From positions 1-46,746 of the forward strand of contig JAGLYP010000017.1 in assembly GCA_023132155.1 (NCBI GenBank): DNA of 46,746 nucleotides, given 5' to 3'. Source of the DNA: Candidatus Parcubacteria bacterium (GTDB lineage: Bacteria; Patescibacteriota; Patescibacteriia; Patescibacteriales; UBA12075). The position numbers and the translations under genes were made by a program. The notes below the pieces were generated by a model. It searched no databases. It worked only from the letters and a program-made list of their open reading frames with translations, and was not told the origin of the DNA. Shown here piece after piece: positions 109-5,486 of this stretch; the stretch's first letter is position 1; every line of letters begins with the position of its first letter.

Positions 109-354
109 ATGAATTTAGGAGGACTGCGCAGATTTATAGAAGGTATTGCATATTTACCTGATGAAACTGATTTAATTGTTGAACAAAAAGATGGTGGTCA
201 AGATGAAGCTCTCTGTGCTGAAGTTTGCACCTATGAATATGGAGGACTTCACTATTCGAAAGATAGTGTCAAGGAAAATGAGGATAACACAGCCTTTGAC
301 CCTGAATGTTGGGAAAAATTGGAAAAACCAACAGTTAAAATCGCTATGTGCTAA
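109..354 (+). CDS. Small acidic protein, unknown function
   Basis: I do not recognise this 81-residue protein. It is soluble, acidic and has four cysteines (C36, C40, C67 and the last residue, C81), so metal binding or a disulfide is possible but unproven. The start is well supported: a strong Shine-Dalgarno sequence (AGGAGGAG) lies 6-8 bases upstream, which is rare among genes in this window, and a promoter and terminator frame the gene, so it looks like a single-gene unit. It points the opposite way to the cassette genes downstream and lies outside the recognisable cassette boundaries. It could be the last remnant of accessory DNA beyond the array. Confidence 0.65.
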   Translation: MNLGGLRRFIEGIAYLPDETDLIVEQKDGGQDEALCAEVCTYEYGGLHYSKDSVKENEDNTAFDPECWEKLEKPTVKIAMC

Positions 355-482: not shown

Positions 483-580
483 GATGTATTGACGGGATTA
501 TTTAATTATCTGTTTTAAAATAGCAATGTTTTTTTTATCCGCAAAAACGTTTTCAAATAAAAACGTCTAGTCAATATTTC

Positions 581-734
581 ACATAATGAATACCGATGAA
601 GCGAAGTTTTTGTTTCTCTTCATTATTATATATTATAAAGAAAAGAGAGGCAAAAATTTGGGTCGGAAAAAAAATTTACTCCTTATTATCATTATTAAGG
701 AATTTTTTTGGAGCCGCTTATCGCGTTGTTGTAC
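581..734 (-). repeat. attC-like site 2
   Basis: Outer boxes are ACATAAT (581-587) and GTTGTAC (728-734). Inner arms CGATGAAGCG and CCGCTTATCG pair with one unpaired extra base, as extrahelical bases do in true attC sites. Inside are two sub-hairpins: one framed by GCGAAGTTTTT and AAAAATTTGGG, one by AAAAATTTACTCC and GGAATTTTTTT. The flanks TATTTC and GATGTA are shared with the other sites. Confidence 0.8.
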
Positions 735-738
735 GATG

Positions 739-752
739 TAAATTTTTTATCT
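739..752. repeat. Cassette E internal inverted repeat, left copy
   Basis: TAAATTTTTTATCT recurs exactly inverted at 1779-1792, again just inside the two boxes of its cassette. Cassette D has an interrupted version (1958-2011 with 2547-2599) and cassette F a 7-bp version (487-493 with 570-576). Confidence 0.75.
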
Positions 753-802
753 GGTTTTAAATGAAATAAACTTTGTTTATTCTAATAGAAAATTTAATTT
801 TT

Positions 803-860
803 TTGTTTTGGGCAAAGAGCAGAGGGGAAGTGAAGGGGTGAATGCTCTTTGCCCAAAACT
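803..860 (-). terminator. Strong hairpin terminator after the methyltransferase gene
   Basis: A perfect 17-bp stem (805-821 with 843-859, starting GTTTTGGGC) encloses a 21-base purine-rich loop. T-rich sequence follows on the - strand side. It sits between the methyltransferase stop codon and attC-like site 2, so it ends that cassette's transcript. Confidence 0.7.
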
Positions 861-865
861 CCTTA

Positions 866-1654
866 TTATTTTATTTTTTTACAAATATAAAAAAACGGTG
901 ATTTATAAGAATTAAAGTTTTTTGACAACGATCCTCTCATTAAATCAGCATCTTCTTTTGATATATTTCCCATTGTTCTTCTATCTTCTATTTGGAAATT
1001 GGCATTTCTAATTTGTGTTTCTACTTCTTTCCGACTTGTGAAATGAATGAATTGTCTTGCGTTTGTATAACTTCTATTAAAAAATAAATCTCCAAATTCA
1101 ATTTCTTCAATTTTGAATCCAAGCGGTTTTAGAATGTATAATTTTACCCATTTTTTTATCCAGAGAAATAAATAATATCCTGCGTAATATCTTTGGTGGG
1201 CAGTAAGAATAAAATAACCGCATGGTTTTAATATTCTGTATATTTCATTCAATGCTTTTTGACGATTTTCTTTTCCAGGAATTTGCACCCAGCCGTTGTT
1301 GGCAAATATTGCTCCGTCAAAAGAATTGTCACAGAATTCAAGATGAGTCGCATCGCCAACTCTTAAATTAATTTCTAAATTTTTTGATGAAGTTATTTTT
1401 TTAGCCGTATCAATCATTTCGGGAGTGACATCAACTCCAATTACTTCAAGGCCTTTTTTGTGTAGCGAAATAGTTGTTCTTCCGGATCCGCAACCAATAT
1501 CAAGAATTTTTGATTTAGGTTTAAAATATTTATTGATTAATATCTCTTCACTATTCCAAAAACCTTGTTCGGCAATTTTTCTATATCCATCTTGCGTAAC
1601 TTCTGAACCAAACTCTTTTATACTTTCTTGTTTTATTTGTTCTATGTGATTCAT
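866..1654 (-). CDS. Class I SAM-dependent methyltransferase (cassette E)
   Basis: The 262-residue protein has a Rossmann-type methyltransferase core. The glycine-rich motif I (ILDIGCGSGRTT) lies at residues 50-61, the acidic residue closing strand 2 in VIGVDVT at about 75, and then GDATHLEFCDNSFD and a C-terminal ILKPCGYFILTAH strand. These identify a Methyltransf_11/25-type small-molecule or protein methyltransferase. Nothing shows the substrate. It is the only gene of cassette E, begins 143 bases after the cassette border, and has no clear Shine-Dalgarno sequence. Cassette-borne methyltransferases are common, so a modifying or resistance role is possible but is only a guess. Confidence 0.9.
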   Translation of the reverse strand: MNHIEQIKQESIKEFGSEVTQDGYRKIAEQGFWNSEEILINKYFKPKSKILDIGCGSGRTTISLHKKGLEVIGVDVTPEMIDTAKKITSSKNLEINLRVGDATHLEFCDNSFDGAIFANNGWVQIPGKENRQKALNEIYRILKPCGYFILTAHQRYYAGYYLFLWIKKWVKLYILKPLGFKIEEIEFGDLFFNRSYTNARQFIHFTSRKEVETQIRNANFQIEDRRTMGNISKEDADLMRGSLSKNFNSYKSPFFYICKKIK

Positions 1655-1778
1655 CTTTTTAAATAATAAATCGTTTTCGCAGCGACAGCGGAGAAAACAC
1701 CTTATTTCCCCTTTTTAATAAATAAAAAAATCAAATTTTCGCCGTGTTCAAATCACCTGAATATTAAAACCGCCACTA

Positions 1779-1792
1779 AGATAAAAAATTTA
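1779..1792. repeat. Cassette E internal inverted repeat, right copy
   Basis: Exact reverse complement of 739-752, four bases from the GTACAAT box of site 3. Confidence 0.75.
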
Positions 1793-1796
1793 TTTC

Positions 1797-1952
1797 GTAC
1801 AATGAATACCGATATCTGAAGTTTTTAATTCTCTACATTATTATTTTATTATAAAGAAAAGAGAATTAAAAATTTGGGTCGAAATAAAATTTTTCTCATT
1901 GTTATAATTAATATTAAAAAATTTTATGTAGCCAGATATCGCGTTGTTATGT
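1797..1952 (-). repeat. attC-like site 3 (compensatory arm variant)
   Basis: Boxes are GTACAAT (1797-1803) and GTTATGT (1946-1952). The inner arms read CGATATCTG and CCAGATATCG instead of the AAGCG/CGCTT type of the other sites: both arms changed together, so pairing is kept. This arm pair shows no extra unpaired base. The two sub-hairpins are retained. Confidence 0.8.
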
Positions 1953-1957
1953 GCTGT

Positions 1958-2011
1958 AATAAAAAGCTTCACTCCTTATTATTAAAAAATTAATAATTGG
2001 GGCAATTTATT
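1958..2011. repeat. Cassette D internal inverted repeat, left copy (interrupted)
   Basis: Blocks AATAAAAAGC, AAAAAATTAATAATT and GCAATTTATT occur in this order and reappear inverted at about 2547-2599, with small insertions between them. The longer unmatched stretches suggest an older or decaying copy. This is also the one cassette whose end boxes do not match. Confidence 0.7.
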
Positions 2012-2531
2012 GATTATTATTTTCAATTTGGTTTGTATTTGGAATTTGTTTTGATGCGATAAATTCTATTTCTTCTTCGGTCGCGCCAATTTGTCCATAC
2101 AGTTTATCACCTCGTTTAACGATTTCATGATACCCTTTGCTAATTTTTTGGCCAGTTTGCATATCAAGAACATAATTCATCGCACCAGTTGAAACAATCA
2201 TTAATCCCAAGCTATCATCAAAATAGATATCGTGAAAATCCTCTGGAGATTCTTCAAAAAAATCATCTAGATTTTGAGGCGTTTTAAGTAAATTTTGCAT
2301 CGCCCCTTTTCTTCCAATTAATGCAATAACATTATCGTGTTTAAAAATATCAAATTCATGATAACCTTCGCTAACAATTTTGCCGTCATTGTTAATAATG
2401 TATTTCAAAGCACCTTTTTTCAGTATTCGATAATTTTCATTAACTTTTTCGCCATGGACATCAGGTAAATTTTCACGCTCATTTTGATTTTTTTGAGGAA
2501 TCTCCTCGTGTTTTATTAATTCATTTTTCAT
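2007..2531 (-). CDS. WG-like repeat protein, unknown function (cassette D)
   Basis: The 174-residue soluble protein has a charged, probably flexible first 30 residues and an Asn-rich tail. Between them it repeats a short beta unit: KGALKYIINNDGKI followed by GYHEF (residues 39-60), a degenerate KGAMQNLL (75-82), TGAMNYVLDMQTGQ followed by GYHEI (115-137), and a last partial unit near GQIGA. The spacing between the GYHE motifs is 77 residues. This resembles WG/KWG repeat proteins, which are poorly characterised. It is the sole gene of cassette D. No signal peptide or membrane segment is visible. Confidence 0.75.
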   Translation of the reverse strand: MKNELIKHEEIPQKNQNERENLPDVHGEKVNENYRILKKGALKYIINNDGKIVSEGYHEFDIFKHDNVIALIGRKGAMQNLLKTPQNLDDFFEESPEDFHDIYFDDSLGLMIVSTGAMNYVLDMQTGQKISKGYHEIVKRGDKLYGQIGATEEEIEFIASKQIPNTNQIENNNQ

Positions 2532-2604
2532 ATGATTTATTACAAAAATAAATTGCCAAAATTATTAATTTTTTATTTTATTTAAGGAGGCTTTTTATTA
2601 TTTC

Positions 2605-2758
2605 GTACAACTATCACCGATGAAGCGAAGTTTTTGTTTCTCCTCATTATTATATATTATAAAGAAAAGAGAAACAAAAATTTGGGTCGGAAAAAAAATT
2701 TACTCCTTATTATTATAATTAAGGAATTTTTTTGGAGCCGCTTATCGCGTTGTTATGT
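2605..2758 (-). repeat. attC-like site 4
   Basis: Boxes are GTACAAC (2605-2611) and GTTATGT (2752-2758). The body is nearly identical to site 2, including the CGATGAAGCG/CCGCTTATCG arms with one extra base and both sub-hairpins. Confidence 0.8.
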
Positions 2759-2762
2759 GATG

Positions 2763-2785
2763 TTGAAAAAGAAAAAATATTTTTA
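2763..2785. repeat. Cassette C internal inverted repeat, left copy
   Basis: 23 bp (begins TTGAAAAAGAAAAAA) found exactly inverted at 3204-3226. It overlaps the stop codon of the deaminase gene. Confidence 0.9.
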
Positions 2786-3184
2786 TCCTATTTTTTGCCA
2801 CCAATCATGATAAGGAAGCAATTCTTTCAACTTAACTACTTTGTCTTTATCTAAAATAATATCTGTTTCAAGATTCTCTTTGTTTGTTTGATGCATAAAC
2901 TCACGACATCTTCCACAAGGTGATAGGATAAAAACACTTCCTTTATCATCTTTCCAAACAGCGACTATTTTTTTGATTTTGTATTCGCCTTGAGTGATCA
3001 TTTGACTGATGGCAGTATGTTCAGCACAAAATCCCATCCCAGAACTGGTATCAATACAGACTCCCTTGAAGATAGTATTTTTATTCGTTACTAAGGCGCA
3101 ACCAACATCACCCATTTCAGAGTTACCGATGGTTTTAGAATGTACAACTTGAATTGCTTCTTCTATTAATTTTTCGTTTGTCAT
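2783..3184 (-). CDS. Cytidine deaminase family protein (cassette C)
   Basis: The 133-residue protein carries the zinc signature of the cytidine deaminase fold: CAEH at residues 53-56 (Cys53 ligand, Glu55 proton shuttle) and PCGRC at 89-93 (Cys90 and Cys93 ligands). Length and layout fit single-domain enzymes of the CDA/blasticidin-S deaminase group. The likely reaction is hydrolytic deamination of a cytosine nucleoside or related aminopyrimidine; the true substrate cannot be read from the sequence. Its stop codon lies inside the 23-bp inverted repeat that also occurs before its start, so the cassette is trimmed tightly around the gene. Confidence 0.88.
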   Translation of the reverse strand: MTNEKLIEEAIQVVHSKTIGNSEMGDVGCALVTNKNTIFKGVCIDTSSGMGFCAEHTAISQMITQGEYKIKKIVAVWKDDKGSVFILSPCGRCREFMHQTNKENLETDIILDKDKVVKLKELLPYHDWWQKIG

Positions 3185-3203
3185 AGTATTGTGTTGTTAA
3201 AAT

Positions 3204-3226
3204 TAAAAATATTTTTTCTTTTTCAA
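3204..3226. repeat. Cassette C internal inverted repeat, right copy
   Basis: Exact reverse complement of 2763-2785, four bases from the ACATAAC box of site 5. Confidence 0.9.
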
Positions 3227-3230
3227 TTTC

Positions 3231-3384
3231 ACATAACGTTTCGGGATTAAGCGAAGTTTTTATTTTTCTTCCTTATTATAATAATCAAGAAAAGAAAAAT
3301 AAAAATTTGGGTGAAGAGCTGGCACAATTCATTAATGTAAATATAAAATCGTGCCAGCTCTGAACCGCTTATCCCGTGTTATGT
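3231..3384 (-). repeat. attC-like site 5 (sub-hairpin with a new stem)
   Basis: Boxes are ACATAAC (3231-3237) and GTTATGT (3378-3384), the only site whose boxes match each other. Arms GGGATTAAGCG and CCGCTTATCCC pair with one extra T. The second sub-hairpin has an unrelated GC-rich stem, AGAGCTGGCAC with GTGCCAGCTCT, at the position of the AT-rich stem of other sites. The folding, not the sequence, is conserved. Confidence 0.8.
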
Positions 3385-3394
3385 GATGTAGACG

Positions 3395-3430
3395 GAAATT
3401 TTTATTTTTTAAATTATTTTTTGGCAATTT
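3395..3430. repeat. Cassette B internal inverted repeat, left copy
   Basis: A 36-bp sequence (begins GAAATTTTTATTTTTT, ends TTTGGCAATTT) is repeated exactly, inverted, at 3875-3910. The copies lie just inside the two cassette-end boxes and flank the gene. Confidence 0.9.
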
Positions 3431-3824
3431 ATGATTCTAATTTTTCAAGGCAATTCTCTGATAGGAAATCAATAAAGTATTTTAACATATCCTTTGCTCT
3501 GTCCGTAATAATATTTTTGATAGCATCGTATTCTTCAGATTGACCTTCTGGTTTAAATTCATCTTTGTATTCATTAAATTTTTTCACAAAATCTTCTATG
3601 CCGGGTCTCAATATTACAATTCTGTCATCCCTTTTTTCCGGGTAATCCGAATTTTCTCTGTCTAAAGAAGGAAAGTTTTCGTTTATGATTTTGTCCACGT
3701 CATCATATGTAACGGGCTGTTTTGATAAAAATTTATTACTAAGTAATTTTTCTAGATTGACCTTGATATTATTTATCTCTGGCATTTCTTTTTTGTCTAT
3801 TGATAATTTAGATTCTTGTTCCAT
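3429..3824 (-). CDS. Unknown charged protein (cassette B)
   Basis: I do not recognise this 131-residue protein. It is soluble and highly charged, with predicted helical character at both ends (LEKLLSNKFLSKQPV; YDAIKNIITDRAKDMLKYF) and a central RDDRIVILRPGIEDF segment. There is no membrane segment or obvious catalytic motif. It is the only gene of cassette B and is framed by the longest internal repeat of the array, 36 bp on each side. One copy overlaps its stop codon; the other ends about 50 bases before its start. Confidence 0.7.
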   Translation of the reverse strand: MEQESKLSIDKKEMPEINNIKVNLEKLLSNKFLSKQPVTYDDVDKIINENFPSLDRENSDYPEKRDDRIVILRPGIEDFVKKFNEYKDEFKPEGQSEEYDAIKNIITDRAKDMLKYFIDFLSENCLEKLES

Positions 3825-3874
3825 ATTGTTGAATTATAATTATTTATTTAATAAGTTATGTCGACCGTTGAAAA

Positions 3875-3910
3875 AAATTGCCAAAAAATAATTTAAAAAA
3901 TAAAAATTTC
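3875..3910. repeat. Cassette B internal inverted repeat, right copy
   Basis: Exact reverse complement of 3395-3430, placed ten bases from the ATATAAC box of site 6. Confidence 0.9.
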
Positions 3911-3920
3911 TGGCTATTTC

Positions 3921-4061
3921 ATATAACATTTACCGATCAAGCGAAGTTTTGATTCTTCCTTATTAAATTAATTAGGAATCAAAATTTGGGAGAAGGAATT
4001 TTTTACTCATTATTATTATCATTAAGGAAAAATTCCTGAACCGCTTATCGCGTTGTTGTAC
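3921..4061 (-). repeat. attC-like site 6
   Basis: Boxes are ATATAAC (3921-3927) and GTTGTAC (4055-4061). Arms CGATCAAGCG and CCGCTTATCG pair with one extra C. It is the shortest full copy (141 bp), with a reduced first sub-hairpin. Confidence 0.8.
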
Positions 4062-4090
4062 GACCAGCTAGGGCGGAGCGAAGCGGAGAG

Positions 4091-4112
4091 TAGCAAATAA
4101 ATTACTTAGTTT
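4091..4112. repeat. Cassette A internal inverted repeat, left copy
   Basis: 22 bp (begins TAGCAAATAAATTAC) found exactly inverted at 4528-4549. It overlaps the stop codon of the gene ending at 4102. Confidence 0.9.
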
Positions 4113-4521
4113 GTATTTCAAGATTCTCGTCTTTTAATTTGGTTCTGTTTCCCCATAGGTCTTTGCGCATAGCCTTTACGGTTTTTATGAATTGTTTATT
4201 TGAAGGCGATGCTATATAATCCCTAACATTCTCAATTACATCGTCTGTCGCATAGAGTATCATTTCATAATATTCAGCCATTAAGGTCTCCTTTATATCT
4301 TCAGTTGACTGAATATCAGGGTGTGAATCTTGCACAAAAACAATATTTTTAGGATTCAAATAACAATTCATAAAAATCATCGCAGATTTATACCGACGTA
4401 TTTTATGCTCAAATTCTGATTTTGATTTTTCTTGTTTTTTATCTAATGCGTATTTTATAAACAACGTGGCAACAGAACCAAAACCAAACGAGATTAATGC
4501 AATAATTATATTTTCTGGCAT
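4102..4521 (-). CDS. Membrane-anchored unknown protein (cassette A)
   Basis: The 139-residue protein starts with one membrane segment (about residues 4-25, IIIALISFGFGSVATLFIKY) followed by a Lys/Glu-rich, probably helical cytoplasmic part. I do not recognise a family. It is the cassette nearest the recombinase, where cassette genes are usually best expressed in known integrons. The start codon has no Shine-Dalgarno sequence; the first 30 bases after the cassette border form one half of a 22-bp inverted repeat whose other half covers the stop codon. Confidence 0.7.
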   Translation of the reverse strand: MPENIIIALISFGFGSVATLFIKYALDKKQEKSKSEFEHKIRRYKSAMIFMNCYLNPKNIVFVQDSHPDIQSTEDIKETLMAEYYEMILYATDDVIENVRDYIASPSNKQFIKTVKAMRKDLWGNRTKLKDENLEIQTK

Positions 4522-4527
4522 AAACTT

Positions 4528-4549
4528 AAACTAAGTAATTTATTTGCTA
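4528..4549. repeat. Cassette A internal inverted repeat, right copy
   Basis: Exact reverse complement of 4091-4112, four bases from the GTACAAC box at 4554. Confidence 0.9.
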
Positions 4550-4553
4550 TTTC

Positions 4554-4582
4554 GTACAACAAGTGATATCTGCACTTATTGT
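4554..4582 (-). other. attI-like simple recombination site
   Basis: GTACAAC (4554-4560) is followed by AAGTGATATCTGCACTTATTG. It matches the left arm of attC-like site 3 (box, short gap, GATATCTG) but has no second long arm, only a small hairpin (AAGTG/CACTT). It lies between the recombinase gene and the first cassette, where attI sits in integrons, and overlaps the -35 region of the recombinase promoter. Confidence 0.6.
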
Positions 4583-4607
4583 TTTTTTATTTAAAATAAG
4601 CTAAAAT
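4579..4607 (+). promoter_or_regulatory. Promoter of the recombinase gene
   Basis: TTGTTT (4579-4584), 17 bp, TAAAAT (4602-4607). It overlaps the end of the attI-like site, so recombination or recombinase binding there could affect its own expression. Confidence 0.5.
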
Positions 4608-4637: not shown

Positions 4638-5486
4638 ATGAATGGAAATTATAAATATCCAAGCAAAGATCCTATTTATATGTTAGCACAAGAGTTAAGA
4701 TTACGCAATTTTAGCCCAAAAACAGTAAAGGTGTACGCATACTATAATCAGGAAATTTTAAGATTTGCCGAAAAGTCGCCCAAAGAGATAAACAGCCAAG
4801 ATATAAAAGATTATTTGGATTATTTAATAAATTCTGGAAAATCAACTTCAACAGTTAACCAGGCGATTAACGCGTTGAAGTTCTATTACGGGCAAATATT
4901 AAGAAGAAAGTTTTTTTCCGGAGAAATAGGAATAAAACGCCCTAAAAAAGAAAAAAAATTGCCAGTTGTGTTATCAAAGCAAGAAATTGTCAAAATGATT
5001 GGTGCCGGCAATAATACAAAACACAAATTAGTAGTTCAAATATTATACAGCACCGGTTTGCGAATATCCGAATTAAGAAATTTAGAAATTAATGATATAG
5101 ATTTTAATAGAAAGTGTGTATTAGTAAAAAATGGAAAAGGCAAAAAGGATAGAATTACAGTAATTTCACAGGTTGTGTTAAAAAATATAGAAAAATATTT
5201 GTTGGAATATAAGCCGATTAAGTATCTTTTTGAAAGTTTTGAAATTGCTAAAAAAATGAATGTCAGAGGCATGCAAAAAGTTGTAACGGATTTAGCTAAA
5301 AAGGCGGGAATTAAAAAGAACGTAAGCCCTCATTCCCTAAGACATAGTTTCGCAACACATTTACTGGAAAATAATGTTAATTTGCGTTATATTCAAAGTC
5401 TTTTAGGGCATGCAAGGCTGGAAACAACGCAAATTTATACTAAGGTGGCCACAAATAATTTTGCTAATATTAAAGATTTATTGTAA
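4638..5486 (+). CDS. Tyrosine recombinase (Xer/IntI-like integrase) of the cassette array
   Basis: The 282-residue protein has the N-terminal SAM-like core-binding domain (about residues 10-90) and a C-terminal catalytic domain with the full active-site set: Arg142 (TGLRISEL), a Lys near 167-169 (GKGKKDR), His232 and Arg235 (HSLRH), His258 (LLGHARLETT) and Tyr267 (QIYTKV). The stretch between the Lys motif and HSLRH is only about 55 residues. IntI proteins have an extra helical insertion here and E. coli XerD is also longer, so this is a Xer-like enzyme lacking the IntI signature. The start is set by a strong AAGGAGGGG six bases upstream. Its position at the end of the array suggests it moves the cassettes; it could instead be an ordinary Xer-type or element integrase. 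Confidence 0.9.
   Translation: MNGNYKYPSKDPIYMLAQELRLRNFSPKTVKVYAYYNQEILRFAEKSPKEINSQDIKDYLDYLINSGKSTSTVNQAINALKFYYGQILRRKFFSGEIGIKRPKKEKKLPVVLSKQEIVKMIGAGNNTKHKLVVQILYSTGLRISELRNLEINDIDFNRKCVLVKNGKGKKDRITVISQVVLKNIEKYLLEYKPIKYLFESFEIAKKMNVRGMQKVVTDLAKKAGIKKNVSPHSLRHSFATHLLENNVNLRYIQSLLGHARLETTQIYTKVATNNFANIKDLL

Follow-up and report, generated by a model that had tools for sequence, protein, structure and literature searches.

The window analysed here, a 46,746-nucleotide stretch of DNA from a Candidatus Parcubacteria bacterium (GenBank assembly GCA_023132155.1, contig JAGLYP010000017.1; G000:C9 in our set, from a 1.23 Mb genome), contains an integron-like array on the minus strand, in which six cassettes (C1 to C6) are separated by five attC-like sites of approximately 143 to 158 nt. 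The cassettes end in inverted repeats, here called arms, which lie inside the recombination boxes, reach toward or into the gene, and accompany loops that hold a gene; between related cassettes the two arms diverge in mirrored fashion. The array is a variant of the integron kind. Our best explanation, which we hold with about as much doubt as conviction, is that the arms close off the loop holding the gene and insulate it, so that a cassette in single-stranded form would fold in a way that displays its recombination site.

The original prediction, made from the letters of the window alone, held that every cassette carries such an inverted repeat, and all six were found at the claimed lengths on the minus strand, to which the following coordinates refer. 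The arms of C1 are 22 bp long (start arm 4528..4549; end arm 4091..4112, over the stop codon of the gene at 4102-4521), those of C2 are 36 bp and exact (3875..3910 and 3395..3430, the end arm extending to the stop codon; 54 at 91% when counted with the boxes), and those of C3 are 23 bp and exact (3204..3226 and 2763..2785, the latter overlapping the stop codon). C4 has outer arms of 11 bp, read from the sequence (2590..2600 and 1957..1967), and inner arms of 29 nt at 93% (2547..2575 and 1983..2011, the end arm overlapping the stop codon). C5 has exact outer arms of 14 bp (1779..1792 and 739..752) and inner arms that form a 21-nt block (1720..1740 and 788..808). The arms of C6 are 7 bp (570..576 and 487..493), and this 97-nt cassette is too short for the comparison of own with cross-cassette duplexes. 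For C1-C5, start and end of the same cassette form duplexes of −25 to −40 kcal/mol, versus −6 to −18 kcal/mol for ends of mismatched cassettes, and the longest exact run is 14-36 for own ends versus 6-14 for mismatched ones. C1-C5 thus lie far above the cross-cassette null, and within the window the arms are private to their cassettes as pairings, as had been claimed. A short GGCAATTT stretch is common to C2 and C4. The arms were predicted to begin four to ten bases from the box; we measured 3-9 nt past the 8-bp R box, except for 28 nt on one side of C1. R box and arm are kept apart by a mismatch that hardly varies, with GAAAT at one end of the cassette and ACATC at the other, after which the arm extends geneward. 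In a circular cassette the arms lie outside the attC boxes and would lengthen the attC stem, which supports that part of the prediction.

Sites of the same build are found in relatives. A pattern for the conserved site centre matched 24 of the 111 genomes in the order and 61 of the 381 in the class, and the control, in which the pattern was read backwards, gave almost no hits. From an initial group of relatives 75 sites were parsed; they are imperfect palindromes of the form R''L''...L'R', and their sequence conservation is higher than that of classical attC sites. The order of elements is R''-L''-hairpin 1-CCCAAATTTT-hairpin 2-AAACTTC-L'-spacer-R'. Parsing of the stretches retrieved from these relatives yielded 100 large loops, to which a few more were added by hand; all loci are from assemblies, and many contigs break within arrays. 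The parser was home-made, and where it missed a site, some long loops run across it and have lower own scores in consequence. For 57 outer gene loops the median score of a loop's own arms was 17, with 36 loops reaching at least 15 versus 0.9% of cross pairs; the median score of cross pairings was 8. Five class 1 integron cassettes scored 6-7, equal to their own cross pairings, in a small control for which nine genes were tried and four lacked a recognisable box pair. These five cassettes are without arms, in keeping with the claim that classical attC sites have no such repeats. The score follows the presence of a gene: outer loops without one scored 4-12, and those with one reached as high as 36. 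Of 60 parsed loops, 40 have a stop codon overlain by an arm, making general the overlap first described in the window, and 39 have an arm that ends within 10 nt of the ATG or overlaps it.

A point absent from the original prediction is that genes also occur inside hairpin 1 of the attC-like site. This was the position of 32 of the 100 large loops, which thus lie within a site; in such cases the outer loop, between sites, is often just a short hairpin that encodes nothing. The own arms of these 32 loops had a median score of 22, and 25 reached at least 15, versus 2.1% of cross pairs. Hairpin 1 without a gene scored 5-16, nearly all 5-12, and large hairpin 1 had a median of 23.5. A whole gene with its own arms stands between L'' and CCCAAATTTT in, for example, L058 (G005:C10), L057 (G011:C122), L034 (G002:C101), and L160. 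The genes held in this way measure about 230-750 nt.

Together with the non-coding sequence at the cassette ends, the arms constitute a frame, and related frames recur around different genes. The C5 frame surrounds different genes in L058, L066, L075, L077, and L160, the last being the complete genome of Ca. Wolfebacteria GW2011_GWB1_47_1 (CP011209.1); the C2 frame is also present in L066 (1148), and the C4 frame in L071 (5063). Across genomes, the claim that each repeat is private to its cassette therefore does not stand, with the C2, C4, and C5 frames found around unrelated genes. In a protein comparison that left out the L160 gene, most genes in shared frames were non-homologous, the exceptions being the homologous pairs L066/L077 and L081/L083. 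A check for compensatory changes in other Patescibacteria arrays, which the original prediction had proposed, found that arm differences between related cassettes are mirrored. Among 109 pairs of related frames there were 229 mirrored and 24 one-sided differences, a count inflated by the choice of blocks for their complementarity and by the reuse of frames in several pairs. Individual clean pairs hold up on their own, among them L049/L079, with 10 mirrored differences, 0 one-sided, and 28 positions the same. In frame family E, with eight members, 305 of 312 cells are Watson-Crick pairs, and 33 of 43 columns contain at least two pair types. Internal mismatches affect approximately 1.5% of arm columns, versus 2.4-2.6% in the attC's own hairpins. 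In several frames the arms are broken by small GC-rich side hairpins (such as CGGCTATCGCCG) whose sequences differ and are unrelated between the two sides, as at L049 1593, L071 5710, L068 749, and L079 4402. In the C5 frame, the start-side GAGGGGAA matches, by eye, the loop of an end-side hairpin.

Our best explanation of these features is that each gene would form the loop at the end of an extended DNA stem, which in C1-C5 of the window would run outward from the attC R boxes and in many relatives inward, with the gene inside hairpin 1. The arms would be kept complementary for the single-stranded or extruded cassette, above all the excised circle, in which arms, R boxes, L boxes, and the two short attC hairpins would form one continuous fold with the gene looped out. 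In such a fold the arms may keep the gene from pairing with the recombination site, protect that site from melting, and allow a loop as large as a gene to be tolerated within it or next to it. We infer that the molecule under selection is DNA in its recombining form and that the arms aid recombination. According to a review of classical integrons (PMC8946536), attC sites fold from single strands or via cruciform extrusion, their hairpins are opened by the single-stranded DNA-binding protein (SSB), and a long variable terminal structure (VTS) leads to less recombination under replicative conditions. The penalty on a long VTS and the opening by SSB would give arms that close a gene-sized loop a plausible use.

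Equilibrium (partition-function) DNA folding of the cassettes indicated that the arms add approximately 8-30 kcal/mol, which agrees with the predicted stabilisation of the folded substrate, but the boxes are predicted to pair nearly as well without them. C4 is an exception among the cassettes, with R' and R'' not matching and predicted R pairing nearly nil. Several results weigh against a role of the arms in recombination or lend it no support. When the start arm was shuffled in C1-C3, the predicted bottom-strand pairing of the R boxes, P(R), dropped by little, from 0.97-0.99 to 0.86-0.98; for hairpin-1 cassettes, P(L) barely shifted. The arm score is flat with loop length and does not rise. 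As an indicator of which strand is selected, wobble pairs in the arms (G.T, assigned by strand) numbered 17 on the bottom and 10 on the top strand (p=0.25), a difference that points clearly to neither, and the hairpin-2 control was unbiased. To these are added the inflation of the mirrored count and the fact that the recombinase beside the array is tied to it by position alone. As the boxes pair without arms at equilibrium, any benefit would be kinetic, protective, or in recognition.

The arms could instead be a side effect of the making or repair of cassettes: fold-back copying or strand switching on a folded strand would turn one end into an inverted copy of the other and go on correcting it, and the arms need bring no benefit. 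Near-perfect pairing over as much as 36 bp, little wobble, arms that stop at the open reading frame, and mirrored differences would all be expected of such copying. A templated copy should however be identical on both sides, and the side hairpins differ between the sides, which disfavours a mere inverted copy. One frame family is moreover kept around unrelated genes, and the mismatch rate in the arms is like that of the attC hairpins, which are presumed to be under structural constraint. We regard this account as unlikely, while taking it seriously.

A further possibility is that there exists a limited set of non-coding carrier frames into whose loop genes are swapped, such that the arms are the edge of the carrier and are not produced anew with every cassette. 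The recurrence of the C5 frame around several unrelated genes, including that of Ca. Wolfebacteria, the shared frames of C2 and C4, and the eight members of family E all fit this account, and yet many arms, among them those of C1 and C3, have no recognised relative in the set. As a complete explanation we consider it distinctly improbable. It concerns origin and not function, and is compatible with the closing and insulation of the gene loop by the arms.

The original prediction had also suggested that the arms could bring about end-pairing of the mRNA. Pairing of the 5' with the 3' untranslated region of a cassette mRNA, for protection or for stop/start coupling, would suit the placement of arms near or over the ATG and over the stop codon, and the two strands are comparable in folding. 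Against it stand five reverse genes with a predicted sigma-70-like promoter inside an arm, at L058 1112, L067 4068, L070 2188, L124 1472, and in L160. The predicted promoter is TTGACA-N17-TATACT in L058 and TTGACA-N17-TATCAT in L160, and L058 has in addition an intrinsic terminator between the gene and the other arm. The mRNA of a reverse gene should in these cases lack at least one arm, though the arms are kept and are equally long, which contradicts the suggestion for reverse genes that come with a promoter-like sequence of their own inside the arms. In some forward frames, −10-like elements were seen by eye between the arm and the ATG. The predicted in-arm promoters argue against mRNA end-pairing as the general reason for the arms and for a role at the level of DNA, and we consider the mRNA account very unlikely. 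A transposon-like element with the arms as its terminal inverted repeats is hardly credible: inverted repeats do surround each gene, but no transposase family match was found among the window cassettes, and the arms vary between these cassettes, have positions internal to the recombination boxes, and run into coding sequence.

The sites between the window cassettes, all on the minus strand, are attC1 (3920..4062, R''-L''-hairpin 1-CCCAAATTTT-hairpin 2-L'-R'), attC2 (3230..3385), attC3 (2604..2760), attC4 (1796..1953), and attC5 (580..735). In attC2, the place of hairpin 1 is taken by a GC-rich palindrome of 15 bp, in contrast to the AT-rich palindromes found there in the neighbouring sites. 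R'' is 8 nt long, usually directly preceded by ACAT and separated by a 3-4 nt gap from L''; GAAAT follows R', and L' often has one extra base. By the integron criterion, the R boxes of one cassette are complementary and the boundary lies at G^TT in R'. In these arrays R'' of a cassette is usually complementary to its own R'. Among 38 consecutive pairs, some of which were mis-parsed, 30 have an R'' of the next site that complements R' at 7-8 of its 8 positions. The R' boxes at 580-587 and 1796-1803 have ATT, not GTT, at the presumed crossover. The R boxes of C4 (1954-2603) are mismatched, GTTGTACG and CACATAAC, and those of the other cassettes match; C4 may be a fused or exchanged cassette. An Rfam scan of the array detected no known RNA family, only two neighbouring tRNAs exceeding the gathering score.

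The cassette genes are likewise on the minus strand. No family match was obtained for those of C1 (4102..4521, 139 aa), C2 (3429..3824, 131 aa), and C4 (2007..2531, 174 aa). C3 encodes a member of the cytidine deaminase family (2783..3184, 133 aa; PF00383, E 6e-12) and C5 an S-adenosylmethionine methyltransferase (866..1654, 262 aa; PF13649, E 2e-23); C6 is without a gene. A gene of 81 aa at 109..354 on the plus strand, reverse-oriented with respect to the array, is predicted to lie inside hairpin 1 of an attC with R''L'' at ~461-483. It is accompanied by a terminator-like hairpin at 357-400 and, upstream, by TTGACT...TATGTA, and its start-side sequence is like the arms of family D. These features probably represent a seventh cassette, of the hairpin-1 type, cut by the contig start; contig G000:C9 begins at base 1, and the end arm is outside view.

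Adjoining the array and divergent from it is a gene for a tyrosine recombinase of Xer/XerA-like type (4638..5486, plus strand). The protein passes NCBIfam NF040815 (244 bits, cut-off 220), an XerA-type family described as site-specific tyrosine recombinase/integron integrase, and falls under the cut-off of TIGR02249 (201 bits in two pieces, cut-off 265). Aligned with IntI1, it has gaps of 31 and 10 residues at the IntI-specific additional domain near patch III; the IntI1 reference sequence used matches thousands of plasmid records at 99-100%. The catalytic residues R142, K167, H232, R235, H258, and Y267 are kept, and R-K-H-R-H-Y is present in all five aligned proteins. Judged from this alignment, the recombinase is not a canonical integron integrase by the additional-domain criterion, despite the integron-like layout of the array. 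Its closest named relative found is from Ca. Falkowbacteria, and its distribution between genomes is patchy. In viral contigs, a query with the single protein found no relative, and a query with an alignment found 15 distant recombinases. Directly before the first cassette, a candidate attI-like site was read from the sequence at approximately 4561..4592 (minus strand), with inverted halves ACAATAAGTG / CACTTGTTGT. Such halves, conserved, were recognised by eye before the first cassette and upstream of the recombinase in six genomes (the window's and G005, G006, G011, G043, and G044), and the sequence resembles a dif-like core site.

The closest known systems are the integrons. The likeness comprises a recombinase divergent from the gene array, a candidate attI-like site, R''L''L'R' sites with an extra L' base in many, and cassette-specific R boxes; the differences are the recombinase without the IntI additional domain, the two attC hairpins around CCCAAATTTT, the long inverted arms at the cassette ends, and the genes sometimes found inside hairpin 1. 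Archaeal integrons (PMC9668308) also extend attC arrays beyond the classical hosts, and short sites of the present type are found near an integrase in a Nanoarchaeia contig, but archaeal IntIs are reported to carry the IntI-specific additional domain (PMC9668308), which the present recombinase lacks. In that contig (L205, Ca. Nanoarchaeia, DPANN, JAQTRH010000014.1), the interval 3200-3560 contains a pair of attC-like sites with this architecture, beside a related recombinase. XerA, XerC, and XerD, acting at dif-like sites, are alike in that NF040815 is the best family match and the attI-like site has two inverted halves, whereas the present recombinase stands beside a cassette array, is patchy between genomes, and has a putative action on attC. 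Hairpin 1 and hairpin 2 occupy the position of the VTS of a classical attC, but the region here can accommodate an entire gene together with the arms that close it. In the open-access literature we found no paper that treats integrons of Patescibacteria or Parcubacteria, a gene placed within an attC hairpin, or pairing between cassette ends. We tentatively propose, with somewhat less than even confidence, a distinct class of Patescibacteria integron, whose recombinase would be of Xer type and lack the IntI domain, in which the cassette would travel as one folded single-stranded DNA object with the gene as the loop of a long paired stem beside or inside attC, and in which unrelated genes would be exchanged into reusable frames.

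How genes are turned into cassettes is still a question for classical integrons, in which a long insert within attC is known to impair folding. Cassette ends paired up to the start and stop codon, together with attC sites that contain a gene, lend the folded cassette a visible structural logic and suggest a testable route by which genes could be exchanged within a frame. The array places integron-like gene capture in very small bacterial genomes, beside a recombinase without the domain thought to define integron integrases.

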